From an uncultured Alphaproteobacteria bacterium (GTDB lineage Bacteria > Pseudomonadota > Alphaproteobacteria > HIMB59 > GCA-002718135), in contig CACGTA010000010.1 in the NCBI GenBank assembly GCA_902575815.1, positions 1 to 40,280 on the forward strand: 40,280 bases of DNA, given 5' to 3'. Under the pieces are notes generated by a model. The model had not been told where the DNA came from. It did no database searches and saw only the letters and a list, made by a program, of their open reading frames with translations. Of the stretch, positions 9,177 to 28,025 are shown piece by piece. Numbering within the stretch: the stretch's first letter is position 1; every line of letters starts with the position of its first letter. A program made the position numbers and the translations under genes.

Positions 9177-9178
9177 AA

Positions 9179-10057: not shown

Positions 10058-10069
10058 AAAATTTTAATT

Positions 10070-10097: not shown

Positions 10098-10110
10098 TTT
10101 TTTAAGTAAA

Positions 10111-11343: not shown

Positions 11344-11347
11344 TTTA

Positions 11348-11353
11348 CCTCCC
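11348..11353 (-). promoter_or_regulatory. Shine-Dalgarno GGGAGG fixing the start of binding protein B
   Basis: GGGAGG on the minus strand with a 4-base spacer to ATG 11343. It decides against the in-frame ATG 11370, which lies on the far side of this site. Confidence 0.72.
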
Positions 11354-11360
11354 AAAATTA

Positions 11361-11381
11361 AAACCAACAAAAGGTTGGTTT
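11361..11381 (-). terminator. Stem-loop between GH38-like enzyme 2 and binding protein B
   Basis: AAACCAAC / GTTGGTTT, an 8-bp stem with a 5-base loop. Read on the minus strand it is followed by TAATTTT and then by the ribosome site of binding protein B seven to eight bases later. It could be a partial terminator for the upstream glycosidase gene or a leader hairpin controlling binding-protein translation. The stem is short, so function is uncertain. Confidence 0.4.
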
Positions 11382-11418
11382 ATTGAATACTTAAATACTA
11401 TACATAAATATTCAAAAC

Positions 11419-14079: not shown

Positions 14080-14152
14080 GAATTTAGTATATTTATATTG
14101 CAACTAATGACAAGGCCTTTTACTTACAAAATGAAGTTGTATATATGAAATT

Positions 14153-15334
14153 ATGGCATTTTTCTCAGAAAAATTTTTATTAGATCACATCTATAAAATT
14201 ATTAATTTTTATTATCCAAAATGTATAGATAAAAAATATGGTGGTTATATCAATCAATTCTATGATGATGGGGAAATAGCAGATTATGATACAAAGCATA
14301 TAGTTGGTACCTGCAGATTTATTTATAATTTTTCAACTTGTTATAATTTATTTAAGAATAATGATTTTGCTGAAGCAGCAAAACATGGATTAAAATTTTT
14401 ATATAATAAGCATAAAAGAAAAGATGGTTCATACATATGGGTTATGGATAAGGATCAAATCAGTGATAAAACAAGACACTGTTATGGAATGGCTTTTGTT
14501 CTTCTGGCATATGCCATAGCTACCAAATATAAAATTGAAGAAGAAGATAATAAAAATAAAATCTATGAAACATATAATTTCTTAGAAAATTATTTTTTTG
14601 AAAAAAAATTTGGAATGTATGTTGATGTAATTGATGGAGATAATTTTAATACAATAGATTCTTACCGAGGCCAAAATGCGAATATGCATTTATGTGAGGC
14701 TCTACTATGTTGCTATGAAGCCACAAGAGATACTATATTTCTAAAAAGAGCTAAAAATATCGCTAACAAAATTTGTAATGATTTAACTTATAAAGACAAT
14801 TATGTTTGGGAACACTATAATGAGAATTGGGAACATGATTGGGAATACAATATAAATGATCCCAAACATTTATTTCGCCCTTATGGGTTTTTACCTGGAC
14901 ATTTTTTTGAGTGGGCTAAATTACTAATGAATATTTACAGACATGATAATGAAAATTGGCTTATTAAAAAATCAGAGGCCTTATTTGATATTTCTATAAC
15001 TAATAGTTGGGATAAAAAAAATGGAGGAATTTTTTATACCTTTGACAGAGAGAAAAAAATTTTAGACACGGATAAATACTATTGGGTTCATTCTGAAATG
15101 ATAGCTGCAGCTGCTGGACTTCATAAATTAACGAACAATACAATGTATCTTGAATGGTACGATAAATGTTGGGAGTATGTAATACAGAACTTTTCAGACG
15201 AAAAATATGGAGGATGGTATAGGGTACTAAATGTTAAAAATGAGAAATATGACAACTATAAAAGCCCGCCTGCAAAAACAGACTATCATCCAATTGCAGC
15301 ATGTAGTGAAGCTCTATTATATTTAAAGTTTTAA
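14153..15334 (+). CDS. AGE-family epimerase/isomerase, probably D-mannose isomerase
   Basis: N-acylglucosamine 2-epimerase superfamily protein (393 residues, usual length), an (alpha/alpha)6 barrel that interconverts sugars at C1/C2. Visible active-site signatures are R55 in GTCRFIYN, NANMH (H179), PGHFFEWAKLL (H250) and KTDYHP near the C-terminus (H379). The NANMH plus KTDYHP combination is what I know from mannose isomerases and YihS-like aldose-ketose isomerases rather than GlcNAc epimerases. The setting next to mannosidase-like enzymes supports release of mannose followed by isomerisation to fructose. No fructokinase is visible in the window. It is monocistronic, divergent from the GH38 operon, and its stop codon overlaps the convergent aldolase stop by four bases. 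Confidence 0.82.
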   Translation: MAFFSEKFLLDHIYKIINFYYPKCIDKKYGGYINQFYDDGEIADYDTKHIVGTCRFIYNFSTCYNLFKNNDFAEAAKHGLKFLYNKHKRKDGSYIWVMDKDQISDKTRHCYGMAFVLLAYAIATKYKIEEEDNKNKIYETYNFLENYFFEKKFGMYVDVIDGDNFNTIDSYRGQNANMHLCEALLCCYEATRDTIFLKRAKNIANKICNDLTYKDNYVWEHYNENWEHDWEYNINDPKHLFRPYGFLPGHFFEWAKLLMNIYRHDNENWLIKKSEALFDISITNSWDKKNGGIFYTFDREKKILDTDKYYWVHSEMIAAAAGLHKLTNNTMYLEWYDKCWEYVIQNFSDEKYGGWYRVLNVKNEKYDNYKSPPAKTDYHPIAACSEALLYLKF

Positions 15335-15882
15335 ATATTTGTTGATCCAACTGCTATAACATTTTCGAGAGAAAAATAATTATCTTTATTTTCATTATTG
15401 ATACCACCAGTTGGAATGAATTTAATTTCATTAAAAATCTCTTCTAAAAACTTTAAAGATTTTACTCCACCATTTTTTTCAGCATGAAAATATTTAAGAA
15501 TGTTACAATCATACTCAATTGCGGTTAATATCTCTGACGGAGTTGAGACACCCGGAATAAATAAGAACTGATTTTTCTTTGCAAAATCTAACATTTTTAT
15601 ATTAGTGCCGGGAGATACATAGAAATCAAATTTAAATTTAGTAACTTCTTCAAACACTTTTAAAGATTTGATTGAGCCTAATCCAATAGTTATGTTTGGA
15701 TTTTGTTCCTTTAAATTTATAGCTGTTTCTAATGCATCATGACTTCTTAATGTAATCTCGATGACTTTATATTTTTCTAAAACAAGTCTATTAAATTTAT
15801 CTATTATATCTTGAGAACTTCCTTTCCCAATAATTGGTAAGATTTTTTGATTCTCAATTACTTTTATAATTTCAGTTGACAT
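15331..15882 (-). CDS. eda: KDPG/KHG aldolase, C-terminally short
   Basis: 2-keto-3-deoxy-6-phosphogluconate aldolase, a class I Schiff-base enzyme yielding pyruvate and glyceraldehyde-3-phosphate. The catalytic pieces are present: IEITLRS (E42 and R46) and the Schiff-base lysine K130 in LKYFHAEKNGG, where E. coli Eda has KFFPAE. GVST and PTGGIN follow as expected. It is 183 residues against about 205-213 in the family: the protein stops at the VGSTNI segment that aligns with GGSWLV, losing roughly 27 C-terminal residues. The Pro-to-His change beside the active lysine is also unusual. It is the last gene of the array, overlaps KDG kinase by 11 bases, and takes the kinase product as substrate. 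Confidence 0.82.
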   Translation of the reverse strand: MSTEIIKVIENQKILPIIGKGSSQDIIDKFNRLVLEKYKVIEITLRSHDALETAINLKEQNPNITIGLGSIKSLKVFEEVTKFKFDFYVSPGTNIKMLDFAKKNQFLFIPGVSTPSEILTAIEYDCNILKYFHAEKNGGVKSLKFLEEIFNEIKFIPTGGINNENKDNYFSLENVIAVGSTNI

Positions 15883-16783
15883 AGAGTTTATGGTTAAAAT
15901 TTTTTTTTGGAATTATAGCTCCTTTAAAATTAGCAACATTTTTTCCTAAACGATGTGCTAGTTTTACACAATCTTTAGTTTCACAGCCATTAAAATAATT
16001 ATAAAGAAAACATGCATTAAATGCATCTCCACATGCCGTCGTATCTTTTACTTTATTGACTAAATAAAATTTATATTTTTCAAAATTACCTTTATTAAAA
16101 ACATTAATCTCTCCATTACCTAATCGAAAAACTATAATTTTATTTTTATAATTCCTGTTAATAATTGTTTTGTGGTTTTTTAGGCCTAAGTTATTAATAT
16201 CTTCTTTTGTCATAAATATAATATCAGCTATATTACTAAACTTAATCATGGTTTGTTGTGCAATTTTTTTACTTTTCCAATTTTTTATTCTTACATTAAA
16301 ATCAAAACAGATTTTTGTTCCACTATTCTTTAATGATTTTAAAATCTTATAAAATTTACTAATACTTTTTTGCTCATATATTGATAATGAAATTCCAGAA
16401 AAATAAATTGCGTTATACTTAGAAATTTGATTGAACATTTTTTTAGAATTTACATCTTCAAATAATGTTTTGGCAGCAGAATTTGATCTCCAATAAAAAA
16501 ATGTTCTTTCCCCCTTTTTATTATTTTGGATGAGATATAAACCTAATGTTTTATTTTTATTTTGAAAAATATTATTTATTTGAACGTTTTCTTTTTTTAG
16601 GAAGTTTAACATCTTTATACTTAATTCATCTTTACCTACTGAAGAAATATATGAAGATTTAGCACCCAATCTTGATAAATATATTGCTGTATTAGCTGTA
16701 TCACCAGCAAAACTTTGTCTAAAAAAGTTATCATTCATATTCGATAGTTCAATCATACATTCGCCTATCGAACAGATATGCAT
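15872..16783 (-). CDS. kdgK: 2-keto-3-deoxygluconate kinase
   Basis: PfkB/ribokinase-family sugar kinase (303 residues) that phosphorylates KDG to KDPG. It resembles E. coli KdgK throughout. IGECMIEL opens the protein, FAGDTANTAIY is the substrate-binding region, GERTFFYWR is the diagnostic KdgK segment, YFSGISLSI follows, and DTTACGDAF near residue 250 carries the catalytic aspartate and anion hole. The C-terminal GAIIP is also conserved. ATG 16783 is used rather than the TTG one codon upstream. It lies five bases after the SMP-30 gene and overlaps the aldolase gene, so kinase and aldolase are coupled. It is the common sink for the 2-keto-3-deoxy acids the surrounding genes would make. Confidence 0.9.
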   Translation of the reverse strand: MHICSIGECMIELSNMNDNFFRQSFAGDTANTAIYLSRLGAKSSYISSVGKDELSIKMLNFLKKENVQINNIFQNKNKTLGLYLIQNNKKGERTFFYWRSNSAAKTLFEDVNSKKMFNQISKYNAIYFSGISLSIYEQKSISKFYKILKSLKNSGTKICFDFNVRIKNWKSKKIAQQTMIKFSNIADIIFMTKEDINNLGLKNHKTIINRNYKNKIIVFRLGNGEINVFNKGNFEKYKFYLVNKVKDTTACGDAFNACFLYNYFNGCETKDCVKLAHRLGKNVANFKGAIIPKKNFNHKLYVN

Positions 16784-16788
16784 CAATC

Positions 16789-17628
16789 TTACTTATATAA
16801 ACTTGAAATATCTATTTCGGTAATATGCCATCTACCTAAGTTTGCAGTATACATGGTATTGCCATCTTCAGATATTGCAATATTTGTTGGATGCGCCATC
16901 GTTGTACAATGTTTATCTTCTATTAAAAGTTTGGTATCACCTTTAGTATCAGCAATATAAATTCTTGAAGGTTCGTAACAACTTATAAATAAGTTATTAT
17001 CTTTATCAAATGCTAAACCATCTGGAACTACAGCAATATTTTCTGTAAAAATTTCTTTTTTACCAAACGAGCCATCATCGTTAATAGGCAATCTTGAAAC
17101 ACAAGGATGGAATGATTCAACCACATATAAAAAATTACCATCAGGGGATAAACACATGCCGTTTGCAAAATTAAATAACTCTTCAGAGCAAGGACCTCCT
17201 GCACCACTAGTTAAATCAAACTTATAAAGACCAATTCCTTTTTCATTAAAACCAAAACTATCTGAAACATATATACTATTTCTTTTACTATCAATTACAG
17301 GATAATTTGGTATTTTTGGACCTTTAGCAAATTCTGTAAAAGTTTTATTACTACTATCATATTTGTATAATGCAGCTTCTTTCATTTCACATGCAAACAC
17401 ATTTTTGTTTGAGTCAATAGCTATACCTAAGATAAATCCTCCACTACTCGCAAGGCATTCCATTTTAGATTTATCTTTTTCAATTTTCATTATTTCTCCA
17501 TTTTCTGTTCCACAATACACATAACCTTCATCATCCAAAGCGACCCCTTCTGGATGTTGTAATCTTGGATTAGAAAATATTCCATCATAATAAACTTTAG
17601 CTTTATCTGAATCTAAAATTGGGTTCAT
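16789..17628 (-). CDS. SMP-30/gluconolactonase-family lactonase 1
   Basis: Six-bladed beta-propeller of the SMP-30/gluconolactonase/LRE family (279 residues). It would hydrolyse an aldonolactone produced by an upstream dehydrogenase. Repeating blade motifs are seen: HPEGVALDDEGYVYCG, GIAIDSNKNVFACE, FANGMCLSPDGNFLYVVE, PDGLAFDKDNNLFISC and HPTNIAISEDGNTMYTAN. Candidate metal ligands are E20, the Asn in FANGM, and Asp in VPDGLAFD. No signal peptide. ATG 17628 follows GGGAGG with a five-base spacer, an unusually strong ribosome site for an internal operon gene. The position between a CoA-transferase-like gene and kdgK suggests lactone opening within the same route. Confidence 0.83.
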   Translation of the reverse strand: MNPILDSDKAKVYYDGIFSNPRLQHPEGVALDDEGYVYCGTENGEIMKIEKDKSKMECLASSGGFILGIAIDSNKNVFACEMKEAALYKYDSSNKTFTEFAKGPKIPNYPVIDSKRNSIYVSDSFGFNEKGIGLYKFDLTSGAGGPCSEELFNFANGMCLSPDGNFLYVVESFHPCVSRLPINDDGSFGKKEIFTENIAVVPDGLAFDKDNNLFISCYEPSRIYIADTKGDTKLLIEDKHCTTMAHPTNIAISEDGNTMYTANLGRWHITEIDISSLYK

Positions 17629-17639
17629 AAATACCTCCC

Positions 17640-19370
17640 TTAGTTTAAACTTTTAATTAACTCTTTTTCTTTCTTTATTATATCTTGAAGCAATTTTATT
17701 CTTTCTTCACCACTTGTAAACTCTAACTTTCTAATATTAAGAGGATCAACTATATTTCTTAATATTTTTAACTGCTTTGGTGTTGGTGATTTAGTTAGCT
17801 TGCAATTTTTGTGATACTTTACTTTAAAGGAAGTATTTTGTTCTATTTCTGTTTTTGAAACACCTTTATGAATACTAATAACTTCAAGTAATCCTGTTTT
17901 TTTATTTTTTTCGAAAATACAGAGATTGGTAAAAATTTTAACATATCCTGGCTGTAAGCCTGCTTTCAATCTATCCTTATCTTTAAAAACACCTCTTCCA
18001 GCACTTACATAATCTACTTTTTCAACAAAACTTAGCTTTGAATGTTTTGTAACATAACAAACAAAATGCTGATGAAGATTAGAAACATCTGCCATACCCC
18101 CTTGACCAGGTAATCTTAATGTACCTCCACTCTTTTTCTTGATTTCAATATTATTAACATCTCCATATTTATCAATTTGAGCAGCTCCTATAACTTCATG
18201 TGTAATTTGACCATTTTGATAATAAATACTGTAGGAGTCATCTCCTCCCCAAAAATTTATACAAGTTTCTCTGTCTAAAACCTCGCTAAACGATAATGTC
18301 ATTGGTCTAAAACTTACATCGTGATGGCCATATGTCATTGTAGTTAGTATTAATTTTGGTGCATGTAGTTTTTTTGCAAGAAAGTAAGAAACATTTGCTA
18401 ATGGTGAAACAGCACCAGAACTACATAAGCTATTATTATCGTATTCATTTGCTAGCGCAAAAGCCATTATTTCATCACTTGTTGCTTTACTTTTTGACGT
18501 ACTATTTTTGATATTTTTAGATAAATATTCTTTAAAAAATTTTGAGTCTAACTTATTCGATTTAGTTACAAAACTTTTATTCTTTTTAAAACTTTTACCA
18601 ATTTTTAGTGGTGTTTTAGCGAAGGCATTTTTCAGATCTTCATAATCAGTTATGTAATAAGGTACTGAAGATGTTGGATAGGCACCGTAAGGAATGTGAG
18701 CAATAGCTTTAATAAAGTTTTTTGAGATCAAACTCCCTTTTTTTTCACGTGCCAGAACGTCTCTTGGTACAACTTCATCAACTGTTACAATTACTTGCTT
18801 ACTAGCTCCTGCCATAATTGTATCAAGTGCTCGAGGGCCTAAAATTTCTACATTTCCGTCTTCATCAGCTCTACTAGCATGAAGAAGAAAACTATCAATT
18901 TTTAAAGATGGAACAATTGCAAACTGATTTTTTGAAACAGGATCTTTAAATTTTTTACAAAAATTAGTTTTATTAGGTAAATCAGACCCCCAAGGATATT
19001 GAAAGATTTCAGAATCAATATTTTGTTGTCCGGCACGTAATGCTTTGATTAAACCTAATGCAGACCAATCTATCACTTCAATTGATTTATTTTCACAAGT
19101 TTTTCGAAATAATGGAGCAAGACCAAAAATATCCAAACTTGAAAAACAAATTTGAATTTTTTTAATTGCATTTTTTTGAAGAAAAAGTTCTAAAGCTAAA
19201 CCTCCTGACCAGCTGATAAATTCCAAATTTTTTGGATTCTTATTTAATAAATTTTTTATTAAAGAAATTGGCAATCTTGCAAAGTGATGTCCCCCTATAC
19301 CAATAGACATATTGTTTTCAATTAGATCAGAAAGATAATTTAATGATTTAAATTTGGATGAAAGTTTCAT
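17640..19370 (-). CDS. Fused alpha/beta class-I CoA-transferase-like protein (GctAB/IpdAB type)
   Basis: Single 576-residue polypeptide joining domains that are usually separate subunits. The alpha-like half (about 1-260) has IGIGGHHFARLP and the SRADEDGNVEILGP segment. The beta-like half (about 295-545) has GAVSPLANVSYFLAKKLHAP, GAAQIDKYGDVNN, and SGGTLRLPGQGGMADVS. In glutaconate CoA-transferase the beta subunit carries the catalytic glutamate in VESG. Here the aligned stretch reads LTTMTYG (about 342-348) with no Glu. IpdAB-type ring-opening hydrolases also lack that residue, so hydrolase or C-C lyase chemistry on a CoA thioester is more likely than CoA transfer. It overlaps the mutarotase-like gene by one base. 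Alternatives are a non-catalytic homologue or a transferase using another residue. Confidence 0.75.
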   Translation of the reverse strand: MKLSSKFKSLNYLSDLIENNMSIGIGGHHFARLPISLIKNLLNKNPKNLEFISWSGGLALELFLQKNAIKKIQICFSSLDIFGLAPLFRKTCENKSIEVIDWSALGLIKALRAGQQNIDSEIFQYPWGSDLPNKTNFCKKFKDPVSKNQFAIVPSLKIDSFLLHASRADEDGNVEILGPRALDTIMAGASKQVIVTVDEVVPRDVLAREKKGSLISKNFIKAIAHIPYGAYPTSSVPYYITDYEDLKNAFAKTPLKIGKSFKKNKSFVTKSNKLDSKFFKEYLSKNIKNSTSKSKATSDEIMAFALANEYDNNSLCSSGAVSPLANVSYFLAKKLHAPKLILTTMTYGHHDVSFRPMTLSFSEVLDRETCINFWGGDDSYSIYYQNGQITHEVIGAAQIDKYGDVNNIEIKKKSGGTLRLPGQGGMADVSNLHQHFVCYVTKHSKLSFVEKVDYVSAGRGVFKDKDRLKAGLQPGYVKIFTNLCIFEKNKKTGLLEVISIHKGVSKTEIEQNTSFKVKYHKNCKLTKSPTPKQLKILRNIVDPLNIRKLEFTSGEERIKLLQDIIKKEKELIKSLN

Positions 19371-20386
19371 TATAAAGCGCTTATAGAAAATGAATAATCT
19401 GTAAACAAAGGCTTATCTCTATAAAGTTTCAAACTGGTTGATACATGTCTTTTAGAAATCGGATTATTTTTATTCAAAGATACATGAGTTGATAATCCAA
19501 ATGCAGAGGTTATTGGCTCAAAACCAATAGTAACATGATTGCTGTTCCAAGGATATTCTGTTCTCCCTTTATTACTTACCCACATTAGAACTGAAGAGAA
19601 ATGATTTGGATTCCAAGAAAAGTTAAATTTATAGTTTTCTTCAAAATTTTCTAAAGACATGTTTCCATCAATTCCACAAAGTTGAAAAAGGTCTTCAAAG
19701 TTTCCATCGAAAGGAGGCTGTGAAAGATCAATAGTATTACCATCAAATCCCTCAACTTTGTCTAATGAAGAAAATTCTCTCCCAATTGCTCCTAAAGTTT
19801 TATCTTTTAAAACTAAACCTGGATAATTAAGTCCAAATTTAAAATTTCCAGGATTTATTTTTATTTTAGACATTTTTTTTGGAATGCGAAACATTGGATG
19901 TAAACCTATTGGTAGTTCACAATCTTCTTTTACGTGAATCTGAAGTCTACAAAAAATGTTATGAGGTTTATCATCTTGAACCTCAATTGTTCTAATCAAA
20001 TGATCAACTAAATCATTTTCAGGATAATTAATTTTAAATTCAAGCTTATTTGATTTTTTTTCAATCAATTCCCAGTTTTTATTTGAACTATAACCATGTG
20101 GTTCATTTACAATATAAGGTTCAACAGAATAAGATGCCTTCCATTCATCTGTTATATCATCTATCGGTGAGTTAATGCCAAAAGGAACACATGGAAATTC
20201 TCCTTTAAGATTTTGAAGTATGCCGGGAAGAGAATTAAAATCATCTGAATTATCATTAAGCCAGTCGGGTTCATGAAAAGGTTTTATTTTTTTTCCATTA
20301 AGATTAAACATAGGGATCATTTTACATCCTAATGCATCAATTTCAATTTCACCACCCTTCCAGCTTAAGTAATATTTTTCATTCAT
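19370..20386 (-). CDS. Aldose 1-epimerase-like (galactose mutarotase superfamily) protein
   Basis: Galactose-mutarotase-like fold (338 residues) that would equilibrate sugar anomers before oxidation. The general-acid/base candidates are visible: a histidine in PIGLHPMFRIP and a glutamate in TIGFEPITSAFGL. An early DALGCKMIP segment corresponds to the glycine-rich start of the family. It lacks a signal peptide. It overlaps the CaiB-type gene by four bases (ATGA) and the fused CoA-transferase-like gene by one base, so it is translated as part of this array. Some members act on phosphorylated or uronic sugars, so the substrate remains open. Confidence 0.75.
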   Translation of the reverse strand: MNEKYYLSWKGGEIEIDALGCKMIPMFNLNGKKIKPFHEPDWLNDNSDDFNSLPGILQNLKGEFPCVPFGINSPIDDITDEWKASYSVEPYIVNEPHGYSSNKNWELIEKKSNKLEFKINYPENDLVDHLIRTIEVQDDKPHNIFCRLQIHVKEDCELPIGLHPMFRIPKKMSKIKINPGNFKFGLNYPGLVLKDKTLGAIGREFSSLDKVEGFDGNTIDLSQPPFDGNFEDLFQLCGIDGNMSLENFEENYKFNFSWNPNHFSSVLMWVSNKGRTEYPWNSNHVTIGFEPITSAFGLSTHVSLNKNNPISKRHVSTSLKLYRDKPLFTDYSFSISAL

Positions 20387-21615
20387 GATTTTTCTATAGA
20401 CATAATTTCATTAGTTATAAAATTATTAATTTCTTCATCTGAGTATCCAAATTCTTTCAATATCTCAAAGCCATGCTCTCCTATCATAGGAACTGGTCTT
20501 GTAACTTTTGTTGGAGTTTCGCTCAATTTTACAGCAGGAGAGACAGTTTTTACTTCGCCATAATTTTTATGGTGGAATGTAGTAAACATATTCATGTGTT
20601 TCACTTGAGGATCATCGTAGACTTGTTTATGAGTTTTTAAAGGTGCAGACCAGCAACCTTTCTCAGATAATTTTTTATCCAAAAAATCTGTAGTAAAATT
20701 TTTTGTTAAGTTTTCAATATAGTGAAATATTTCATCTCTTTTCTTTATCTGTAAATCTGAACCCATTGCACCGCTTGGGCCTTCACTATATTTCTTCAAA
20801 CCTTCATCATTTAAAATTTCTGATAAATCTTCAAGAGATGCTACAGCTATTGTTATATAATCATCCTTGGTTTTATAGATTCCAAAAGGCGCTCCAGAAC
20901 CTGGATGCCCTACTCCACTTTCAGGTCTTTCAAACTCTTGGTTCAAATTTAATACTGCAACAAATTCTTGTAATTGGTGTTGTAACAAAGCACTCATTAA
21001 ATCAACTTTAATTTCTTGCCCTCTTCCAGTCCTGTTGCGGTAATGAAGTGCTGATAAAATTCCAATTACCATGTTCAAAGAACCAAGTTGGTCTGCTATA
21101 CCAGCACCTAATTGAGTTGGAGGATATGAAAATCTACCTGTATTTTTTGCTAATCCAGTAATTCCTTGTAACAATAAATCTTGACCTGGTTTATTTAAAT
21201 ATGGTCCAGATTCTCCATAACCTGATCCACTACAATAAATTATTTTAGGATTTATTTTATTAAAATCTTCATAACCATATCCTCTCTTTGCCATAACTCC
21301 TGGGCGAAAATTTTGTATTACTACATCACAACTTTCTGCCATTTTATAAATAATTTTTTTGGCCTCAGGTTTTCTTATATCTAATGCAATGGAACGTTTA
21401 TTCCTATTCCATGCCATGTAACTAGCTGAAGAATAATTACCCACCTTCTTATTAAAAAAATTCCATCGTCTAAAATCATCGCCGACATGAATACGCTCAA
21501 TTTTATAGACCTCTGCACCATAGTCTCCTAAAATTTGAGTGGCGAACGGTCCTGCTAATAAATGACTAAAATCTAAAATTTTAACATCAGAAAGTGCACT
21601 TGATTTATCTAGCAT
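20383..21615 (-). CDS. Class III (CaiB/BaiF-type) CoA-transferase
   Basis: Family III CoA-transferase (410 residues, usual size) that moves CoA between an acyl-CoA and a carboxylic acid through an aspartyl-CoA anhydride. It begins VKILDFSHLLAGPFATQILGD, as these enzymes do. NFRPGVMAKRGYGYEDF, PKIIYCSGSGYGESGP and the active-site aspartate in PGQDLLLQGITG are all present. The C-terminal domain has the usual PVPMIGEH ending. Its presence in a sugar transport operon is unusual: it implies that a carboxylic acid, probably derived from the imported sugar, is converted to a CoA thioester. It overlaps the SDR gene by one base and the mutarotase-like gene by four. Confidence 0.88.
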   Translation of the reverse strand: MLDKSSALSDVKILDFSHLLAGPFATQILGDYGAEVYKIERIHVGDDFRRWNFFNKKVGNYSSASYMAWNRNKRSIALDIRKPEAKKIIYKMAESCDVVIQNFRPGVMAKRGYGYEDFNKINPKIIYCSGSGYGESGPYLNKPGQDLLLQGITGLAKNTGRFSYPPTQLGAGIADQLGSLNMVIGILSALHYRNRTGRGQEIKVDLMSALLQHQLQEFVAVLNLNQEFERPESGVGHPGSGAPFGIYKTKDDYITIAVASLEDLSEILNDEGLKKYSEGPSGAMGSDLQIKKRDEIFHYIENLTKNFTTDFLDKKLSEKGCWSAPLKTHKQVYDDPQVKHMNMFTTFHHKNYGEVKTVSPAVKLSETPTKVTRPVPMIGEHGFEILKEFGYSDEEINNFITNEIMSIEKS

Positions 21616-22418
21616 TATTCTTTTGAATGTGAACCAGCTCCAGGCCGTGTCCTAGGTGTAATAACTAAACCACCGTCAACTCTAAAATCAGAGCCGTTTG
21701 CAAAAGCCCCACCATCTGATGCTAAATAAACTGCAGTCGCTGCTATTTCTGAAGGTTTACCTATTCTTCCAAGAGGATGCATCAAAATGAAATCATCTAA
21801 TAAAGTACCTGTACCATCTTCTTCGACAACTTGATTAACCATTTCAGTAGCTACTGTTCCGGGTGATATCGTATTTGCTCTAATATTAAAAGGACCAAAC
21901 TCAGATGCAATATTTCTTGTCATTGAAATAACACCTCCTTTAATACCAGCATAAGCAGCCCAACCTGGTAATGGTGTATGTGCTTGAACAGATGCAATAT
22001 TTATAATTGAACCACCATTATTTTTTTTTAAATATGGTATTGAATGTTTACATCCATAGAAAACGCTTGAAAAATTTATTGCTAATATTTTTTGCCAATC
22101 TTCATTAGACATGTCTGTTATAGGATATCCACCTATTGCTACAGACACATTATTTACTATAACATCTAACTTGCCATAGGCATTAACAGTATCATCAATT
22201 AATTTTTTTACCTGATCTTCACTTGAAACATCAGTATTTAATGCAATAACATTCTGTGTATCTTTTTGAATCTCTTCATTTGTTTTGAAAAGAAGAGAGT
22301 CATTAATATCCCCTACACCTAATGAAGCGCCCTCTTTTGCAAACGCAAGAGAAATTGCTTTTCCTATTCCTGACCCTACTCCAGTCACAACTGCAACTTT
22401 ATTTTCTAATTGTTTCAT
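21615..22418 (-). CDS. Short-chain dehydrogenase/reductase
   Basis: Classical SDR (267 residues) that oxidises a sugar or polyol hydroxyl with NAD(P). The Rossmann TGVGSGIG motif is at residues 12-19 and D37 after the second strand favours NAD over NADP. NNVS replaces the usual NNAG. The catalytic serine is S143 (NIASVQ), with Y156 and K160 (YAGIK). The C-terminal FRVDGG segment is the standard SDR ending. It follows the CUT2 permease by seven bases, so it is the first enzyme after uptake in gene order. A sugar 1-dehydrogenase giving the lactone for the SMP-30 protein is the simplest reading. Substrate identity is inference. Confidence 0.88.
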   Translation of the reverse strand: MKQLENKVAVVTGVGSGIGKAISLAFAKEGASLGVGDINDSLLFKTNEEIQKDTQNVIALNTDVSSEDQVKKLIDDTVNAYGKLDVIVNNVSVAIGGYPITDMSNEDWQKILAINFSSVFYGCKHSIPYLKKNNGGSIINIASVQAHTPLPGWAAYAGIKGGVISMTRNIASEFGPFNIRANTISPGTVATEMVNQVVEEDGTGTLLDDFILMHPLGRIGKPSEIAATAVYLASDGGAFANGSDFRVDGGLVITPRTRPGAGSHSKE

Positions 22419-22425
22419 ATTCCCC

Positions 22426-23376
22426 TCAATTTTTTCTTCTTTTTATTTCATCAAAGCCAACTGCCAAAATTATTATAATACCATTAACAACCATTTGCCA
22501 TTGAGATTCTACGTTTAACATACCCAATCCATTAGAAATTACTGCTAAAATTAATACTCCTAGAGCAGCGCCTGTTAAAGTTCCTATCCCTCCTACTAAA
22601 CTTACACCACCTAAAACGACTGCGGCAACAACTTGAAATTCAAATAAATCTCCAGCTACATGATTTGCAGATCCTATTCGAGAAGCTAACAATATTGCGC
22701 TGATTGAGCTTAAAACAGAACATATAACAAAAGCAGACAGTTTAATTAATTTTATATTATAACCAGCAAGCCTAGCAACTTCTGCATTGCCCCCAATTGC
22801 ATAAAGTTTTCTTCCGTAACTAGTATTGTTCATAATATAAATAAATGTAACTAGAATTATGATTGCTATAATTGCTGCATATGGAAGAACTCCCATAAAT
22901 TTTCCATTTCCTATATAAAAGAAAAAGTCTGAATATAATTCATCTGATATTGGTCTTTGTCCTGTATATAAATAAACTGCACCCCGTAGTATAAAAAGCA
23001 TCCCTAGTGTAACAATTAAAGAACTAATGCCAAGATAAACGGTTAAAAAACCATTTACCAACCCAATCATTGCCCCAAACAATAAACAAACGATTATTCC
23101 TAAAGTAACACTCTCTGTAAAATTCATAACTTGAATAAGTGGTATTGCAACAAATGCTAATAATGATCCAATAGAAATATCAACTTCACCAGCAATTAAT
23201 AAAACTGCAAAACCAATAGATGCTATTAATATAATTGAAAGTTGACCTGAAACATTCATTATATTTCTTAAGGTAAAAAAATATTCCGATGCAAAAGAGA
23301 AAAAAACAAAAACAATTAAAAAAATTATTCCTAAAGCAACTTCTCCTCTTGCTAAATATTTTTGAATATAATTCAT
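22426..23376 (-). CDS. CUT2 ABC transporter C permease, RbsC/XylH type (second)
   Basis: Inner-membrane permease of the ribose/xylose transporter family (316 residues, eight to ten spans). Recognisable parts are LIAGEVDISIGSLLAF near the N-terminus, GLVNGFLTVYLGISSLIVTLG in the middle and VVAAVVLGGVSLVGGIGTLTG near the C-terminus, all hallmarks of RbsC. It is encoded two bases after the ATPase. Together with the permease on the other side of the ATPase it would form a heterodimeric channel; many CUT2 systems use a single permease gene. Confidence 0.92.
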   Translation of the reverse strand: MNYIQKYLARGEVALGIIFLIVFVFFSFASEYFFTLRNIMNVSGQLSIILIASIGFAVLLIAGEVDISIGSLLAFVAIPLIQVMNFTESVTLGIIVCLLFGAMIGLVNGFLTVYLGISSLIVTLGMLFILRGAVYLYTGQRPISDELYSDFFFYIGNGKFMGVLPYAAIIAIIILVTFIYIMNNTSYGRKLYAIGGNAEVARLAGYNIKLIKLSAFVICSVLSSISAILLASRIGSANHVAGDLFEFQVVAAVVLGGVSLVGGIGTLTGAALGVLILAVISNGLGMLNVESQWQMVVNGIIIILAVGFDEIKRRKN

Positions 23377-23378
23377 GA

Positions 23379-24869
23379 CTAAATTACTGAAGCCTTAAAT
23401 ATTTCTTCTTGTGTCGCTTCATTACGATCAAATTCTTTAGATATTTTACCACCGGCCATAACAATTATTCTATCGCTTAAAGTAAGTAAATCGTTCATTT
23501 CTGAAGTCATTAGTATAACTGAGAGTCCATCTTTAGCTAAATCATTAATTAGTCTTAAAATTTCTGTTTTGGCACCAATATCAACACCTCTTGTAGGCTC
23601 ATCTAATATAATTATTTTTAGGTTTCTAATTAGCCATCTACTCAATAATATTTTTTGCTGATTGCCACCACTTAGTAATGTTATTAATCTTTCAGATGAT
23701 GGGGTCTTTACTTCAAATTTATCAATATACTCATTAGAAATTTTTTTCTCTTTATTTTTATTAATAGTAAAAAGTTTCTCAAATATTTCAAGACTAGGCA
23801 AACTCATATTTTCTCTTAAGTTCATATCTTTAATAATACCTTCACCTTTACGATCTTCTGTTACATAACCTACACCATTTTTAACCATAGTTTGTGTGTT
23901 AAATTTCTTTAAGGTTTGACCATCAATATCAATAGATCCATTTGAAATATTATCATAACCGTAAATAGCTTTTGCCAGCTCTGTTCTTCCAGCACCCATT
24001 AAACCAAAAAAACCTAATATTTCACCTTTGTATAAATTAAATGAAATGTCTTTTAATTTAGATTTAGTAGAAATATTGTTTATATTCATTAAAACTTTAT
24101 CAAATGATTTAACTGGTCTATCAAATTTTTGCTCGACTTTTCTCCCAACCATATCTTGAATTAGTATCTCTTCTGAAGTATCTTTTATATCTCTATGAGA
24201 AATTAGTTTTCCATCTCTTAGAACGGTTACTTCATTTGCAATCTTAAAAATTTCATCAATTTTGTGAGTTATGTAGATGATTGCTATATTATTTTTTTTT
24301 AAATTCTCAATTACTTCAAATAATTTTTCTATTTCATTTGGCGTTAAAGAAGAAGTTGGTTCATCCATTACCACTACGGAAGCATTTTGAAATATTGCTC
24401 TGGCAATCTCTACAATTTGTTGTTCGGAAATGGATAAATTTGCAACTTTCTCTCTTACATTCAGATTAAAACCTATTTTTTTTAATAAATTATTGCAATC
24501 GTTATAAAGTTTTTTCCAATTAACAATACCAAGACTATTAACAGGAAATTTTTCAAGAAATATATTTTCTCCAACTGTAAATTCTGGAATTAAAGCTATT
24601 TCTTGATAAACTACTTTTATACCAAGATTTAAACTGTCGTTTGGATTATCAATATTTACTTCTTTGTCATCAAATAAAATTCTTCCTTGATCTTTGTTAT
24701 ATGCACCAGCTAAAATCTTTATTAAAGTAGATTTACCAGCACCATTTTCTCCCATGAGTGCATGTACACTACCAGCTTTTGCTTCTAAACTAACATCATC
24801 TAAAGCAAGAACTCCTGGAAATTCTTTTTTAATATTTTTTAAAGTTAAGGATTTAAAATTATTATCCAT
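23379..24869 (-). CDS. CUT2 ABC transporter C ATPase, double-domain RbsA/XylG type
   Basis: Cytoplasmic ATPase with two tandem nucleotide-binding domains (496 residues). Domain 1 has Walker A GENGAGKST (40-48), an LSISEQQ signature and Walker B VVMDEPTSSL. Domain 2 has a degenerate Walker A (GLMGAGRTE), which is normal for this family, with LSGGNQQK and IILDEPTRGVD. It overlaps the upstream permease gene by eight bases. It powers only monosaccharide-type CUT2 transport and would not be expected to serve the CUT1 systems here. Confidence 0.94.
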   Translation of the reverse strand: MDNNFKSLTLKNIKKEFPGVLALDDVSLEAKAGSVHALMGENGAGKSTLIKILAGAYNKDQGRILFDDKEVNIDNPNDSLNLGIKVVYQEIALIPEFTVGENIFLEKFPVNSLGIVNWKKLYNDCNNLLKKIGFNLNVREKVANLSISEQQIVEIARAIFQNASVVVMDEPTSSLTPNEIEKLFEVIENLKKNNIAIIYITHKIDEIFKIANEVTVLRDGKLISHRDIKDTSEEILIQDMVGRKVEQKFDRPVKSFDKVLMNINNISTKSKLKDISFNLYKGEILGFFGLMGAGRTELAKAIYGYDNISNGSIDIDGQTLKKFNTQTMVKNGVGYVTEDRKGEGIIKDMNLRENMSLPSLEIFEKLFTINKNKEKKISNEYIDKFEVKTPSSERLITLLSGGNQQKILLSRWLIRNLKIIILDEPTRGVDIGAKTEILRLINDLAKDGLSVILMTSEMNDLLTLSDRIIVMAGGKISKEFDRNEATQEEIFKASVI

Positions 24870-25800
24870 TTTTTTCTTTTCTTAATGTATCAAAATACAC
24901 TGCTAATATGAGTATCACACCTGGAACGACTAGTTGAAACTCTTGTGGAATACTCATTAGTATTATACCATTATCAATGACCTTAAGTATTAATATACCT
25001 AAAATTGTTCCTAAAATAGTTCCACTCCCTCCCTTAAAACTTGTTCCACCTAAAAGTACGGCGGCTATTACGATAAGCTCAAAACCTTTTGCAGATCCCT
25101 GTTGGCCGGTATCCATAAGTGAAGCTAGTATTATGCCTGCTATCCCAACCAACAAAGAAGTAATAATAAAACCAATTAACTTATATCTATTATTATTAAT
25201 TCCAGACAAATTAGAAGAAAATGGGTTACTTCCTATAGCAGTAAAATATCTTCCGTATCTAGTATAGTTCAGTAGAAAAACAAAAATAGGAAGAATTACC
25301 AACATAATAATTACTGGCATTGGGACGTTATAAACAAATCCCTGCCCAATGAATGTAAAAGCAGGTATTAAATGAGTATTGTAAATAGCTGCCATAGAAT
25401 AAATATAAACGCTTCCTTGCAAAATTAACATCATTGCTAAGGTGCCAATTAAAGAATTTACATTTAAAACTGTTCTAACCAAACCGTTTATTAGACCAAT
25501 TAAAAAACAGAAAATAAATACCGAAAAGAAACCAAGAAATAAGCTTCCACTTATATTGATGACATCCATAACAATCACAGTAACAAAGGATAGAAGTGCT
25601 CCAACAGATAGGTCTACTTCACCACTTGTTAATAATATTGTCATACCAAAAGCAACAATCATGACCGTAGAGCTTGATCGTAAAATGCTATTAATATTTT
25701 GAATACTGTAAAATTGAGGATTGTAAAAAGATAAAAATACTAAAAGTAACAAAAGTATTAAAAATAAAATTGTTTCATTTTTTTGAAAAAATTTAGACAC
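24862..25800 (-). CDS. CUT2 ABC transporter C permease, RbsC/XylH type (first)
   Basis: Inner-membrane permease of the RbsC family (312 residues). Hallmarks are LTSGEVDLSVGALLSF near residue 60, GLINGLVRTVLNVNSLIGTL in the middle and VIAAVLLGGTSFKGGSGTILG near the C-terminus. The start is GTG 25800, with no good ribosome site and no in-frame ATG nearby; the first nine bases follow an A-rich tract downstream of a hairpin. It is clearly paralogous to the second permease of the operon but well diverged. Confidence 0.9.
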   Translation of the reverse strand: MSKFFQKNETILFLILLLLLVFLSFYNPQFYSIQNINSILRSSSTVMIVAFGMTILLTSGEVDLSVGALLSFVTVIVMDVINISGSLFLGFFSVFIFCFLIGLINGLVRTVLNVNSLIGTLAMMLILQGSVYIYSMAAIYNTHLIPAFTFIGQGFVYNVPMPVIIMLVILPIFVFLLNYTRYGRYFTAIGSNPFSSNLSGINNNRYKLIGFIITSLLVGIAGIILASLMDTGQQGSAKGFELIVIAAVLLGGTSFKGGSGTILGTILGILILKVIDNGIILMSIPQEFQLVVPGVILILAVYFDTLRKEKNG

Positions 25801-25821
25801 TTTTTTTAAATTAATAATTAA

Positions 25822-25850
25822 GAAAAGCCCCTTGAATTAAGAGGCTTCTC
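25822..25850 (-). promoter_or_regulatory. Stem-loop between binding protein C and its permease
   Basis: Arms at 25822-25833 and 25839-25850 with a five-base loop. On the minus-strand transcript all 12 positions pair, two as G-U wobbles. On the plus strand those two positions are A-C mismatches, so the structure favours the operon's own RNA. A TTAATTATTAATTT stretch follows. It occupies the same place as the hairpins of transporters A, B and D. Confidence 0.62.
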
Positions 25851-25861
25851 GATTTTATTTA

Positions 25862-26881
25862 TTACAGATCAGATGCGTATTTTGTGCATTTTGTTTCTGT
25901 TGGAATATTAGCTACATTTTCAAAATTAATAGCTCTTTTTTGTCCTGCTTTATCAAAGTCATAGTATTTTGCAAAGTTATGAACAGTCAAAGCTAAAGTT
26001 GGTGTAACTTTATGTTCTGGAACATCAACACCATTGAATAAATCTACAGCTAGATTCATACCAGTATAACCAACACCTTCTGGAAACATTGCTGCTTCAA
26101 CTAGGTATGGTGTACCTTCTTTTGTCATTTCATTTAAAAATGCTAAACCTTCTGAACCAGTACCTGCAACAACAAGATCATCTTCAGGTAATCCTGCAGC
26201 TCTCCAAGCTTGCAAGCCTCCTAAAGCTGAACCATCATTGATACCGTAGATAACATTTATGTTTGAATCAGCAGCTAATGCAGCAGACGCTACTTCAACT
26301 GAGCTATCAATCATACCTGAGCCGTCTAATTCATGAACTTTAACAGCATTCACATGTTGTGCAAGAGCTTCCATAAATCCAAGAGATCTTAACACAGTTG
26401 CAGATAATAATGGTAGTCCTACATCCATTACTCTTGCTTCTGATTCTCCTCTAGATACTAGAATTCTTCCAACTGCATCTCCAGCTTTGAAACCAGCATC
26501 ATAATCACAAATAGCAAATAAAGTTGTCATTCCTTTTGCAGGGTTACCTTCTAATACAACAGGTGTACCATCTGCTTTAGCTTTTCTTAAAATTGGAACA
26601 ACACCTTCTTCATTAACTGGAGTCATCATTAACACATCAACTCCTTTTGTCATGAAATCTTCTGCTTGTTGAGTTTGTTTATTTATATCTAAATTTGCAT
26701 CCATTACTTCAAGCTCTATACCCAACTCATCTGCTCTTGACTGTAAACCAAAAATTACGTTTTGATACCATTCGTGAGTACCATAGTTTACAATGTAACC
26801 AATCCTTTTAGGATTAGCTGAGACTGAAAAAGCTAAAGAAAGAGTTATAACAGCTGCTAAAAACCAACTAACTATTTTCAT
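25862..26881 (-). CDS. Periplasmic sugar-binding protein of CUT2 transporter C
   Basis: RbsB/LacI-like periplasmic binding protein (339 residues) with a Sec signal peptide (MKIVSWFLAAVITLSLAFSV, cleavage near SAN). The mature part opens KRIGYIVNYGTHEWYQN, as in ribose/xylose binders. It contains VLMMTPVNEEGVVPILRKA and VIYGINDGSALGG, the two conserved ligand-domain segments. GGGAGG lies six bases before ATG 26881. First gene of an 11-gene array. The ligand is probably a monosaccharide, sugar alcohol or cyclitol; sequence alone does not tell which. Confidence 0.92.
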   Translation of the reverse strand: MKIVSWFLAAVITLSLAFSVSANPKRIGYIVNYGTHEWYQNVIFGLQSRADELGIELEVMDANLDINKQTQQAEDFMTKGVDVLMMTPVNEEGVVPILRKAKADGTPVVLEGNPAKGMTTLFAICDYDAGFKAGDAVGRILVSRGESEARVMDVGLPLLSATVLRSLGFMEALAQHVNAVKVHELDGSGMIDSSVEVASAALAADSNINVIYGINDGSALGGLQAWRAAGLPEDDLVVAGTGSEGLAFLNEMTKEGTPYLVEAAMFPEGVGYTGMNLAVDLFNGVDVPEHKVTPTLALTVHNFAKYYDFDKAGQKRAINFENVANIPTETKCTKYASDL

Positions 26882-27036: not shown

Positions 27037-28014
27037 ATGACTTTTTTAGTTACTGGTGGAACGGGGTTTATAGGTAAGAGAGTAGTTGCAAAATTACTTA
27101 GTAAAAATATTCAAGTTGTCGCAACAGATATAAATATAGATAACGAACAAAATGATTTCGAAAAATATCTATATAGTAAAAATATCTCAATAAAAGGATT
27201 AGAACTACGAGAACTAGATATGTCATCTAAGGAGAACATAAAAAATATTTTTGATAACTATAAATTTACAAATATTATTGCGTGTGGATATCAAATGAGT
27301 AATCTAATTGACAATAATCCCATCAAAGGATCTGAGGTAAATATTGTTGGTATGACAAATTTATTTCAAGCTGTACTTGATTACAAAATTAAACGAATGG
27401 TTTTTCCAAGTAGTCAAAGTATTTATGGCACAACTTCAAAATTATTTGATGATCAACCTGTTAAAGAAGATGACTATTGTGGTCTTCAACATCAATTATT
27501 TACTTATGCTGTTATGAAATTATTAAATGAATTTATGGCTCAAAAATATATGGCATTACATAATATCAGTATTGCCTGTACACGACCATCTGTTGTTTTT
27601 GGTTATGGTAGAAAACGCAGTTCACTAATGTGGGCAGAAGAATTTGCAACCAATCCTGCTTTAGGAAAATCAGTGCATCTACCTTTCCCTGAAACAAATA
27701 AAGATAATTATATATATGTCGAAGATTGTGCTGAACAATTTATTGAATTGAGTTTGAAAGAAAAATTAAATCATTTTGTTTACAATACTGGTTCTGAAAC
27801 TGTTTCAGGTATGGAATTAAAGAAAATAATATTAGAATTAATACCCGATGCAGAGATTACATTTGATGAAAATGGAAAACCTACGCCTTTTATAGATGAC
27901 CAAGATGATCAACGTATTAGAGAAGAATTACCATTTGTGCCAAAAACCCTAAAAGAGGGAATAAGGGCACATATGAATGAAGCAAGAATAGCTCATAATT
28001 TAAACCCAATATAA
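27037..28014 (+). CDS. NAD-dependent epimerase/dehydrogenase (extended SDR)
   Basis: Extended SDR (325 residues) of the nucleotide-sugar epimerase superfamily. The Rossmann motif TGGTGFIG is at 6-13. The catalytic serine region reads PSSQSIYG near residue 124, and the YxxxK pair is YAVMK near 151. DNYIYVEDCAEQFIEL in the C-terminal domain is typical. Members of this branch include UDP-sugar epimerases and free-sugar or uronate dehydrogenases; the catabolic setting makes a free-sugar or sugar-acid dehydrogenase plausible. It is followed by the MetE-like gene after 11 bases, so the two are probably cotranscribed. It is divergent from the transporter C array. Confidence 0.83.
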   Translation: MTFLVTGGTGFIGKRVVAKLLSKNIQVVATDINIDNEQNDFEKYLYSKNISIKGLELRELDMSSKENIKNIFDNYKFTNIIACGYQMSNLIDNNPIKGSEVNIVGMTNLFQAVLDYKIKRMVFPSSQSIYGTTSKLFDDQPVKEDDYCGLQHQLFTYAVMKLLNEFMAQKYMALHNISIACTRPSVVFGYGRKRSSLMWAEEFATNPALGKSVHLPFPETNKDNYIYVEDCAEQFIELSLKEKLNHFVYNTGSETVSGMELKKIILELIPDAEITFDENGKPTPFIDDQDDQRIREELPFVPKTLKEGIRAHMNEARIAHNLNPI

Positions 28015-28025
28015 AAAGGAAAAAT

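Follow-up and report, generated by a model that had tools for sequence, protein, structure and literature searches.

The window (the whole stretch of DNA analyzed, 40,280 nucleotides) contains, according to its ORF list, eleven ORFs on the minus strand between positions 15331 and 26881 (Table 1). In the order of transcription, the intergenic gaps are 61, −8, 2, 7, −1, −4, −1, 11, 2, and −11 bases; the original prediction of eleven same-strand genes with a 61-base hairpin gap, and gaps of at most 11 bases elsewhere, is thus exact. The hairpin, located after the gene for the sugar-binding protein (SBP), had a folding energy of −17.2 kcal/mol (z −4.57, 72 bases folded), and none of 200 shuffled controls matched its stability. 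The hairpin probably uncouples expression of SBP from that of the remaining array genes.

Table 1. Features of the eleven-gene array, in the order of transcription.
Feature	Coordinates	Strand	Remarks
SBP, CUT2 periplasmic sugar-binding protein	25862..26881	(-)	Pfam Peripla_BP_4
Hairpin gap	25801..25861	(-)	61 bases, between SBP and permease 1
CUT2 permease 1	24862..25800	(-)	~40% identical to permease 2
CUT2 double ATPase	23379..24869	(-)	NCBIfam RbsA/AraG models, full length, under cut-offs
CUT2 permease 2	22426..23376	(-)	Pfam BPD_transp_2
SDR dehydrogenase, proposed aldose 1-dehydrogenase	21615..22418	(-)	Pfam adh_short_C2
CaiB, type III CoA-transferase	20383..21615	(-)	Pfam CoA_transf_3, 327 bits
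MutL, mutarotase-like protein	19370..20386	(-)	homologue in Rhizobiaceae cluster
FCT, fused A+B class-I CoA-transferase fold protein	17640..19370	(-)	Pfam CoA_trans
SMP-30/gluconolactonase-type lactonase	16789..17628	(-)	Pfam SGL
PfkB kinase, KdgK-like	15872..16786	(-)	Pfam PfkB
KDPG/KHG aldolase (Eda)	15331..15882	(-)	Pfam Aldolase

The same order of all eleven genes was found in four further genomes (five of five complete loci, the window included), and a sixth locus, on a contig cut at its ends, carries five consecutive array genes, both outermost ones being incomplete. For every array gene, dN was well under the near-saturated pS in each comparison of the window with a relative. The array is therefore confirmed as genuine and beyond chance. 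Among 162 genomes of the order, FCT was present in six, one being the contig-end-cut locus, and was never seen apart from its array partners. SBP (90–96% identical across the four relatives) was present in five, precisely those carrying full-length FCT. The array is an accessory cassette of some uncultured marine bacteria.

Pfam matches agreed with the identities originally assigned to the binding protein, permease, SDR, CaiB, SMP-30, PfkB, and Eda. The set of a Peripla_BP_4 binding protein, a BPD_transp_2 permease, and a double ATPase corresponds to a CUT2 sugar ABC transporter, a type that fits a small monosaccharide. SDR scored above the NCBIfam cut-off for NF005559, named glucose 1-dehydrogenase (231.8 vs 215 bits), and has a YxxxK motif at residue 156, while SMP-30 contains HPEG, NGM, and PDG, which we take to be motifs of its family. 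The KdgK-like kinase, for which TTG is listed as the start with an ATG immediately after it, contains a TACGD motif, and its top NCBIfam model was 2-dehydro-3-deoxygluconokinase (254 bits, cut-off 400). Eda contains EITLR and KYFHA motifs and scored 147.8 bits with TIGR01182 eda, slightly under the cut-off of 156. Judging from family and motif residues, with NCBIfam scores under cut-offs, the two proteins appear to be a KDG kinase and a KDPG aldolase.

The identity of MutL is less firm. No Pfam model matched it, a search of PDB sequences gave a single noise match (E 1.3), and its predicted structure was of low confidence (pLDDT 36). MutL aligned well with its Rhizobiaceae homologue set (hhalign 99.8%, E 2.3e-28), and residues H97, H163, and E290 were invariant in 11 sequences. 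Likeness to an aldose-epimerase set was weak (hhalign probability 28%), and to the window's own aldose epimerase hhalign gave 0.8%; one homologue (27% identity) is annotated as galactose mutarotase. Since Pfam gave nothing, PDB only noise, and the epimerase set a probability of 28%, the originally proposed name "mutarotase-like" is plausible but not firmer than that.

Two further genes encode CoA enzymes. CaiB matched the family profile of type III CoA-transferases (CaiB/Frc), and each of the five type III chains compared has an Asp aligned with CaiB Asp146, which lies in a PGQD motif; we take this Asp to be the catalytic residue of these enzymes. The best PDB matches of FCT (576 aa) were 5mzw_A, 1poi_B, and 6con_B, with further 6co6 chains also among its top relatives, and eight top PDB sequences (E 4e-13 to 5e-9) spanned its A and B halves. 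We take these entries to be AibA of AibAB, GctB of GctAB, and IpdB of IpdAB (6co6 also representing IpdAB). While FCT resembles class I CoA-transferases of the GctAB/SCOT type over both halves, it lacks the catalytic Glu of the B part. At the position of GctB Glu54, FCT has Thr346 in one alignment and Gly348 in the other, and Glu was absent from 16 of 16 FCT rows (the window's own and 15 repeat copies, five genomes altogether). Glu was kept in GctB and in 21 distinct other loci, and 8 distinct non-FCT loci likewise lacked it. Because this Glu is missing, FCT would be expected to perform enolate chemistry rather than CoA transfer; the transferase activity that its original name implied is not supported, and we propose that FCT may be an acyl-CoA lyase. 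AibAB, of the same fold family, presumably also lacks the catalytic β-subunit Glu. IpdAB, likewise of this fold family, is reported to have lost the same Glu and to act as a hydrolase (PMC5380842). FCT differs from both in being a fused protein encoded in a sugar operon, and is at most 34% identical to any match listed outside its genus (the matches listed among 385 genomes of the class were also at or below 34%).

In textbook pathways, sugar acids are dehydrated by metal-dependent dehydratases (IlvD/EDD, the enolase superfamily, UxuA), and routes of the semi-phosphorylative Entner–Doudoroff type consist of SDR, lactonase, dehydratase, KdgK, and Eda. The array encodes SDR, SMP-30, the KdgK-like kinase, Eda, and a sugar importer, but has CaiB and FCT in place of a dehydratase; as originally noted, no sugar-acid dehydratase was found among the eleven genes by ORF and Pfam analysis. 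No relative of UxuA, MR_MLE, or IlvD was found in the 21.7 kb of loci L043, L044, and L045. UxuA was absent from the 40 kb of the window and was near the array in one of five complete loci, beside Eda (G036/L046).

It could be that the imported sugar bears an acid group (an ester, ether, or branch) that is handled by CaiB and FCT or a crotonase, while the sugar part passes through SDR, lactonase, a dehydratase from elsewhere (UxuA or MR_MLE), KdgK, and Eda. The UxuA gene of G036/L046, the dehydratase-type genes present in several CaiB clusters (below), and the closest solved relative of CaiB, named succinate--hydroxymethylglutarate CoA-transferase, would agree with such a scheme. However, the eleven genes include no esterase- or thiolase-type gene, UxuA adjoins the array at that one locus, and transporters of the CUT2 type are suited to small monosaccharides. 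We regard an acid-bearing sugar as rather unlikely.

The closest relatives found of CaiB (49–50% identity) and SMP-30 (44–45%) co-cluster on three Rhizobiaceae plasmids, together with an SDR and a MutL homologue. CaiB of the array and CaiB of the Rhizobiaceae clusters formed a 100/99 clade. These clusters lack FCT and contain a crotonase with both catalytic Glu present; across sugar-linked clusters, the positions that we take to be the catalytic Glu of crotonases were kept in seven of seven aligned crotonases. Sugar oxidation genes, CaiB, and an exchangeable acyl-CoA enzyme therefore make up a recurring set. The co-occurrence check of the original prediction thus went in its favor: because FCT was seen only with its array partners, and because CaiB, SDR, MutL, and SMP-30 are linked again in Rhizobiaceae, no case of CoA genes without sugar genes was encountered for FCT and the CaiB orthologues. 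That CaiB and FCT are bystanders, working on unrelated acids and simply co-transcribed with an ordinary sugar route, could be argued from the size of the paralogous CaiB family, which had matches at E 1e-45 in 248 of the 385 genomes of the class. This is very unlikely in view of the fixed gene order in five complete loci, the repeated Rhizobiaceae linkage, and the coinciding occurrence of SBP and full-length FCT.

CaiB genes were found within sugar clusters of alphaproteobacteria, an actinobacterium, and haloarchaea, and relatives of the cluster adjoin glycoside hydrolases or aldose epimerases. Clusters of epimerase, SDR, CaiB, and crotonase are present in Croceibacterium and Streptomyces, where no relative of the panel dehydratases was found within ~15 kb. 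CaiB clusters of Martelella, Halobellus, Halostagnicola, and Rhodococcus also contain MR_MLE or IlvD genes, and a second CaiB in the window's genus, found with MaoC and adjoining MR_MLE genes, reads as part of an L-fucose set. Because of these last two groups, finding CaiB together with a hydratase does not necessarily point to sugar-acid dehydration.

Assuming that the array is self-sufficient, one reaction is missing (aldonate to 2-keto-3-deoxyaldonate) and two enzymes, CaiB and FCT, have no job. Our tentative reading, held at somewhat less than even chances, is that the array serves a single imported sugar as a self-contained accessory cassette, with CoA-cycled sugar-acid dehydration. The genes present, their linkage, and the loss of the glutamate are observed; each catalytic step is our inference. 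The CUT2 system would, as its family suggests, import the sugar, and MutL, SDR, and SMP-30, judged by their families, would convert it to an aldonate. CaiB would transfer CoA onto the aldonate, and FCT would eliminate the 3-OH of aldonyl-CoA as water; because the thioester acidifies the C2 hydrogen, the product would be an enol, giving 2-keto-3-deoxyaldonyl-CoA. The next aldonate would then receive its CoA from this product, again through CaiB, making CoA no more than a catalyst. The released 2-keto-3-deoxyaldonate would be phosphorylated by KdgK and cleaved by Eda. A crotonase would take the role of FCT in Rhizobiaceae. Through such a cycle, CaiB and FCT would replace the absent metal-dependent dehydratase, in line with the original proposal that CaiB activates the substrate, the fused enzyme transforms it, and a 2-keto-3-deoxy acid results.

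Several observations speak against CoA-cycled dehydration. Ordinary dehydratases are available: UxuA on a different contig of the same genome, UxuA in G036/L046, and two MR_MLE genes that lie outside the array but within the window. Some CaiB clusters retain an MR_MLE or IlvD dehydratase, and the pairing of CaiB with a nearby crotonase is frequent where sugar oxidation genes are lacking (10 of 20 control loci). The scheme also passes through a 2-keto-acyl-CoA, which would be a reactive intermediate, and we know of no characterized dehydrating enzyme with the fold of FCT.

A different use of the same enzymes would be CoA-activated C–C cleavage. SDR would oxidize the β-carbon of the sugar acid or its CoA ester, FCT (like IpdAB) or the crotonase (like EchA20/BadI) would hydrolyze or decarboxylate the β-keto thioester, and KdgK and Eda would process a leftover 2-keto-3-deoxy fragment. 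The top PDB relatives of FCT agree with this, and in the steroid pathway the crotonase EchA20 and IpdAB are described as consecutive ring hydrolases (PMC5380842), which fits the crotonase/FCT swap. The oxidative deoxyribonate route of Klebsiella michiganensis, proposed from mutant fitness data, likewise combines C3 oxidation with cleavage of a CoA ester (PMC6365646). Yet cleavage would not easily supply KdgK and Eda with KDG, leaves the lactonase and the mutarotase-like gene less accounted for, and sits poorly with the retention of both hydratase glutamates in the crotonases; we consider it unlikely. Catabolism of a cyclitol or ring-opened cyclitol, with FCT opening the ring, could appeal to the resemblance between FCT and IpdAB, a ring hydrolase. 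It is highly improbable, since the eleven genes include neither an inositol-type dehydrogenase nor an IolD-type gene, SMP-30 and MutL indicate an aldose and its lactone, and CaiB-cluster relatives occur with glycoside hydrolases or aldose epimerases. No finding pointed to the cyclitol ring opening that had been suggested.

The CoA-cycled dehydration that we favor has a precedent in the enterobacterial cai operon, where a type III CoA-transferase cycles CoA for a crotonase-type dehydration of L-carnitine: CaiD is reported to depend on CaiB for the cycling of CoA between substrate and product (PMC2131755). Both families recur in the Rhizobiaceae sugar clusters, but the array is a sugar operon, not a carnitine one, and the cassette of the window's genus has FCT and no crotonase. 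The claim that no described monosaccharide pathway uses CoA was too strong, as the K. michiganensis route is proposed to proceed via deoxyribonyl-CoA (PMC6365646). That route resembles ours in that a sugar acid is proposed to be handled as a CoA thioester, and its cluster likewise contains a lactonase and a CoA-transferase; the route is described as using a CoA-synthetase, a β-hydroxyacyl-CoA dehydrogenase, and a thiolase to give glyceryl-CoA and acetyl-CoA (PMC6365646), whereas the array has no synthetase or thiolase and has KdgK and Eda. No published description of a CoA-using sugar-acid dehydration route was found. A broader proposal, which we hold to be rather doubtful, is that CoA-dependent sugar catabolism forms a general undescribed class, in which an oxidation block (epimerase, SDR, lactonase) and a CaiB-family transferase would be combined with one of three unrelated exchangeable acyl-CoA lyases (crotonase, MaoC, or the glutamate-less fused class-I fold) to dehydrate sugar acids with catalytic CoA; FCT would be the first class-I-fold sugar-acyl-CoA dehydratase.

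If true, the CoA-cycled alternative would be a new entry into 2-keto-3-deoxy-acid routes, would account for CaiB genes in sugar clusters of alphaproteobacteria, one actinobacterium, and haloarchaea, and would assign a function to a branch of the class-I CoA-transferase fold that does not transfer CoA. Such a route would also bear on the diet of some marine bacteria. Whatever the chemistry, the fact that CoA enzymes are repeatedly encoded beside sugar oxidation genes marks an annotation gap.

The eleven minus-strand genes recognized in the original prediction were confirmed as an array with the same boundaries. The intergenic distances are 61, -8, 2, 7, -1, -4, -1, 11, 2, and -11 bases. The 61-base gap, located 3' of the gene for the CUT2 binding protein (SBP), contains a stable hairpin (z -4.57); a hairpin after a binding-protein gene is usual where the binding protein is highly expressed. 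The host, presumably a member of the HIMB59/AEGEAN-169 marine bacterial group, is represented by a 1.07-Mb assembly (56 contigs, 58% complete).

Location and content of the features discussed. Positions are those of the window unless another locus is named; SBP2 is the name given here to a binding-protein-like protein.
Feature	Location	Strand	Content or remark
Array (transcription order)	15331-26881	minus	SBP, permease, double ATPase, second permease, SDR, CaiB, MutL, FCT, SMP-30, KdgK-like kinase, Eda
MetE-like and NAD-epimerase genes	27037-29063		upstream of array; same pair in 4/4 full relatives
AGE and GH38 neighbors	11419-15334		downstream of array; excluded from unit
Block nearer locus L046	20383-25800	minus	permease 1, ATPase, permease 2, SDR, CaiB
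GH38 region	5684-15334		two GH38 alpha-mannosidase-type genes, CUT1 transporter, AGE protein
Oxygenase-type genes	3821-5681		PhyH-type dioxygenase and fatty-acid hydroxylase family genes within sugar region
Conventional set	34986-39106	plus; minus	MR_MLE, SMP-30, aldose 1-epimerase (plus); another MR_MLE (minus)
Second CaiB, own genome	L061 (contig C7), 7832-10683		CaiB, MaoC, SBP2
Second CaiB, relative	L062, 16953-19809		CaiB, MaoC, SBP2
Second CaiB, relative	L153, 12330-15735		CaiB, MaoC, SBP2
MetE-like/NAD-epimerase pair, other genome	L155, 8435-10432		near CUT1/Gfo-Idh sugar set
Haloarchaeal plasmid locus	L075, 1-12673		alpha-L-fucosidase, mutarotase, MaoC, AMP-binding protein, GH88, CaiB, mandelate racemase family gene
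Rhizobiaceae cluster (order in 3/3)			CUT1 binding protein, two permeases, crotonase, SDR, MutL homologue, ATPase, SMP-30, SBP2, CaiB

Searches of genome contigs and of 162 genomes of the order returned the same five relatives, with identical coordinates for each. The fused protein FCT was found in 6/162 order genomes, own genome included, and the genome-contig search gave at least five loci among the matches listed, all from close relatives. Four relatives (loci L043-L046) carry the full array in the same gene order, and the contig of the fifth ends within FCT; by their records, the contig-cut locus and three of the full ones come from uncultured Alphaproteobacteria, and the remaining full one from a Pelagibacteraceae MAG. 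SBP was present in five of the 162 genomes, exactly those with a full-length FCT. Compared with each full relative, the array genes and the neighboring NAD-epimerase and MetE-like genes had dN values of 0.03-0.35 and pS values of 0.41-0.66.

These two upstream neighbors were rejected as array-specific pathway members, because the MetE-like gene occurs in 41/162 order genomes (six at >=79% identity, the others at 59-62%) and the pair adjoins a CUT1 transporter in all five genomes (incomplete assemblies) inspected without an FCT match. In one of these five, genome G443, a presumed IclR regulator gene directly follows the NAD-epimerase gene, at the place taken by the array in the window. Since its upstream neighbors also occur in genomes without an FCT match, the array looks like an accessory cassette of 11 genes. 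On the other side, the AGE and GH38 genes were left out of the unit because the downstream flank is unlike that of the window in the three relatives examined. In the five genomes inspected without an FCT match, the pair of a short MetE-like protein and NAD-epimerase adjoins a CUT1/Gfo-Idh sugar set (e.g., L155). The best NCBIfam model for the AGE protein, below cut-off, is D-mannose isomerase, and the GH38, CUT1, and AGE genes possibly serve mannoside use.

The array is a mosaic: the block from permease 1 to CaiB is nearer L046 (81-90%) than L043-L045 (62-84%), while SBP and every gene from MutL through Eda are nearer L043-L045. This pattern suggests one exchanged block, which carried SDR and CaiB together.

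The closest relatives of CaiB among the matches listed (49-50% identity) are plasmid-borne, in Sinorhizobium chiapasense, S. mexicanum, and Shinella sp. HZN7, and the closest SMP-30 proteins found came from the same three records (44-45%). The cluster genes are annotated in Shinella only; those of both Sinorhizobium loci were assigned by tblastn. MutL, the mutarotase-like protein, gave weak matches in all three records, and its homology to the Rhizobiaceae counterpart was apparent from profile comparison (hhalign 99.8%, E 2.3e-28). No FCT match was found in the three loci. In a tree of 42 sequences, the array and Rhizobiaceae CaiB groups formed one clade (support 100/99), and CaiB of the Martelella/Streptomyces type a separate one. 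Thus, judged by cluster content, MutL homology, and the CaiB clade, SDR, MutL, SMP-30, and CaiB are kept together across families, and the other acyl-CoA enzyme is swapped (crotonase in Rhizobiaceae, FCT in the array). A Rhizobiaceae-type cluster was not met again among 385 genomes of the class, where SMP-30 at E 1e-30 was found in the own genome only and the best CaiB match outside it was 39% identical.

Fifteen plasmid CaiB neighborhoods, picked non-randomly by rank and annotation from the best 25 of 79 records, were inspected. Clear carbohydrate genes surrounded CaiB in 11 of them (L069-L072, L074-L076, L078, L081-L083); two were ambiguous (Rhodococcus L079, with IlvD and LacI, and Halomontanus L084, with Gfo/Idh genes), and two lay outside sugar clusters (Thioclava L080 and Peribacillus L085). 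Aldose epimerase, SDR, CaiB, and crotonase occurred together in Martelella, Croceibacterium, and Streptomyces. The haloarchaeal locus L075 places CoA genes within an archaeal sugar cluster. As a control, we took the 21 best CaiB matches outside the own genome in the 385 class genomes, less the one at G364 (20 loci), in stretches of 9-16 kb, two of them shortened at contig ends; some of the plasmid loci (11-29 kb) are longer. SDR was found near 6/20 control CaiB genes and a CUT1 permease near 2/20. A crotonase beside CaiB is common and non-diagnostic, since one lay near 10/20 control genes, whereas epimerase and SMP-30 relatives were near none (0/20 each); sugar oxidation genes are diagnostic, in a contrast that is partly circular because the gene panel was partly built from the module loci themselves. 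Two glutamates, which we take to be the hydratase catalytic positions, were kept in all seven sugar-linked crotonases aligned and in the ambiguous Rhodococcus one; the non-sugar Peribacillus crotonase did not keep the two.

Both halves of FCT match the glutaconate CoA-transferase family, the top solved matches being 5mzw_A, 1poi_B, and 6con_B, which we take to be AibA, GctB, and IpdB. The position of GctB Glu54 falls on Thr346 in the alignment with solved chains or on Gly348 in a broader alignment, in a stretch of FCT without any Glu. Glu54 forms the anhydride in GctB, and IpdAB, which has lost the same Glu, is a hydrolase rather than a transferase (PMC5380842). None of the 16 FCT rows, which stand for five genomes (the sequence of the window plus 15 repeated entries), has the Glu. 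It was present in GctB and at 21 distinct loci of other genomes, and missing at eight distinct other loci too. A role of FCT as a true CoA-transferase was therefore rejected, there being no catalytic Glu in the alignments. As this loss is shared with the IpdAB hydrolase, FCT is better read, by analogy, as a putative acyl-CoA enzyme with enolate chemistry. Beyond the genus, FCT matches were at most 34% identical among those listed for the 385 class genomes, and at most 31% in the best 40 of 232 plasmid rows. Eight neighborhoods of extra-genus relatives (L035-L042) contained a CaiB match in two cases and SDR, MutL, SMP-30, KdgK, or Eda matches in none; with the low identity, this led us to set distant relatives aside as guides to function. 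AlphaFold models had mean pLDDT values of 36 (MutL) and 33 (FCT).

If the cassette is self-sufficient, one reaction, aldonate to 2-keto-3-deoxyaldonate, would be without a recognizable enzyme, and two enzymes, CaiB and FCT, would be without an assigned reaction. A CaiB-family transferase is already known to pair with a crotonase for the dehydration of a 3-hydroxy acid: CaiD takes the CoA ester as its substrate, and CaiB moves CoA back and forth between product and substrate (PMC2131755). Given this precedent, the one missing reaction, and the two unassigned enzymes, we propose CoA-cycled aldonate dehydration as the most economical reading of the cassette chemistry; we give it somewhat less than an even chance, and infer all its steps. 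The lyase would be FCT in the array and the crotonase in Rhizobiaceae. To our knowledge, there is one precedent for a sugar acid as a CoA thioester, deoxyribonate in Klebsiella michiganensis. That route, proposed from mutant fitness data (PMC6365646), shares the thioester-bound sugar acid but employs enzymes other than those of the cassette, plus C-C cleavage.

Instead of CoA-cycled dehydration, the CoA enzymes may carry out C-C cleavage, or the imported sugar may bear an acid substituent. Several gene findings leave room for these alternatives: the host genome has a UxuA-type dehydratase gene on a different contig; UxuA stands beside Eda in L046 (genome G036), although it was not found in 21.7 kb of each of L043, L044, and L045; two MR_MLE genes accompany a lactonase and an aldose epimerase in the window; MR_MLE or IlvD genes also occur in CaiB clusters of Martelella, Halobellus, Halostagnicola, and Rhodococcus; and the second CaiB of the genus, with MaoC and SBP2, adjoins MR_MLE genes in a presumed L-fucose set (the L-fucose, IclR, and RraA names at L061, L062, and L153 were given by reading, without a profile basis). 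SBP2 is binding-protein-like, with no signal sequence evident by eye, and its relatives adjoin or stand near CaiB in Shinella, Martelella, and Streptomyces also; it is a putative cytosolic binding-fold protein tied to CaiB.

The open-licence literature, most subscription papers being outside its scope, yielded no description of a CoA-dependent sugar-oxidation route; none appears in the available part of PMC9007349. The 2023 AEGEAN-169 genome paper emphasizes sugar use, and its available part mentions no such cassette (PMC10308909). For the cyclitol route that the original prediction offered beside a sugar-acid one, no supporting gene was found, and this part was dropped together with the transferase role of FCT. 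The original interpretation is upheld in part. What stands is the link of CoA enzymes to sugar oxidation, which is real and recurrent.
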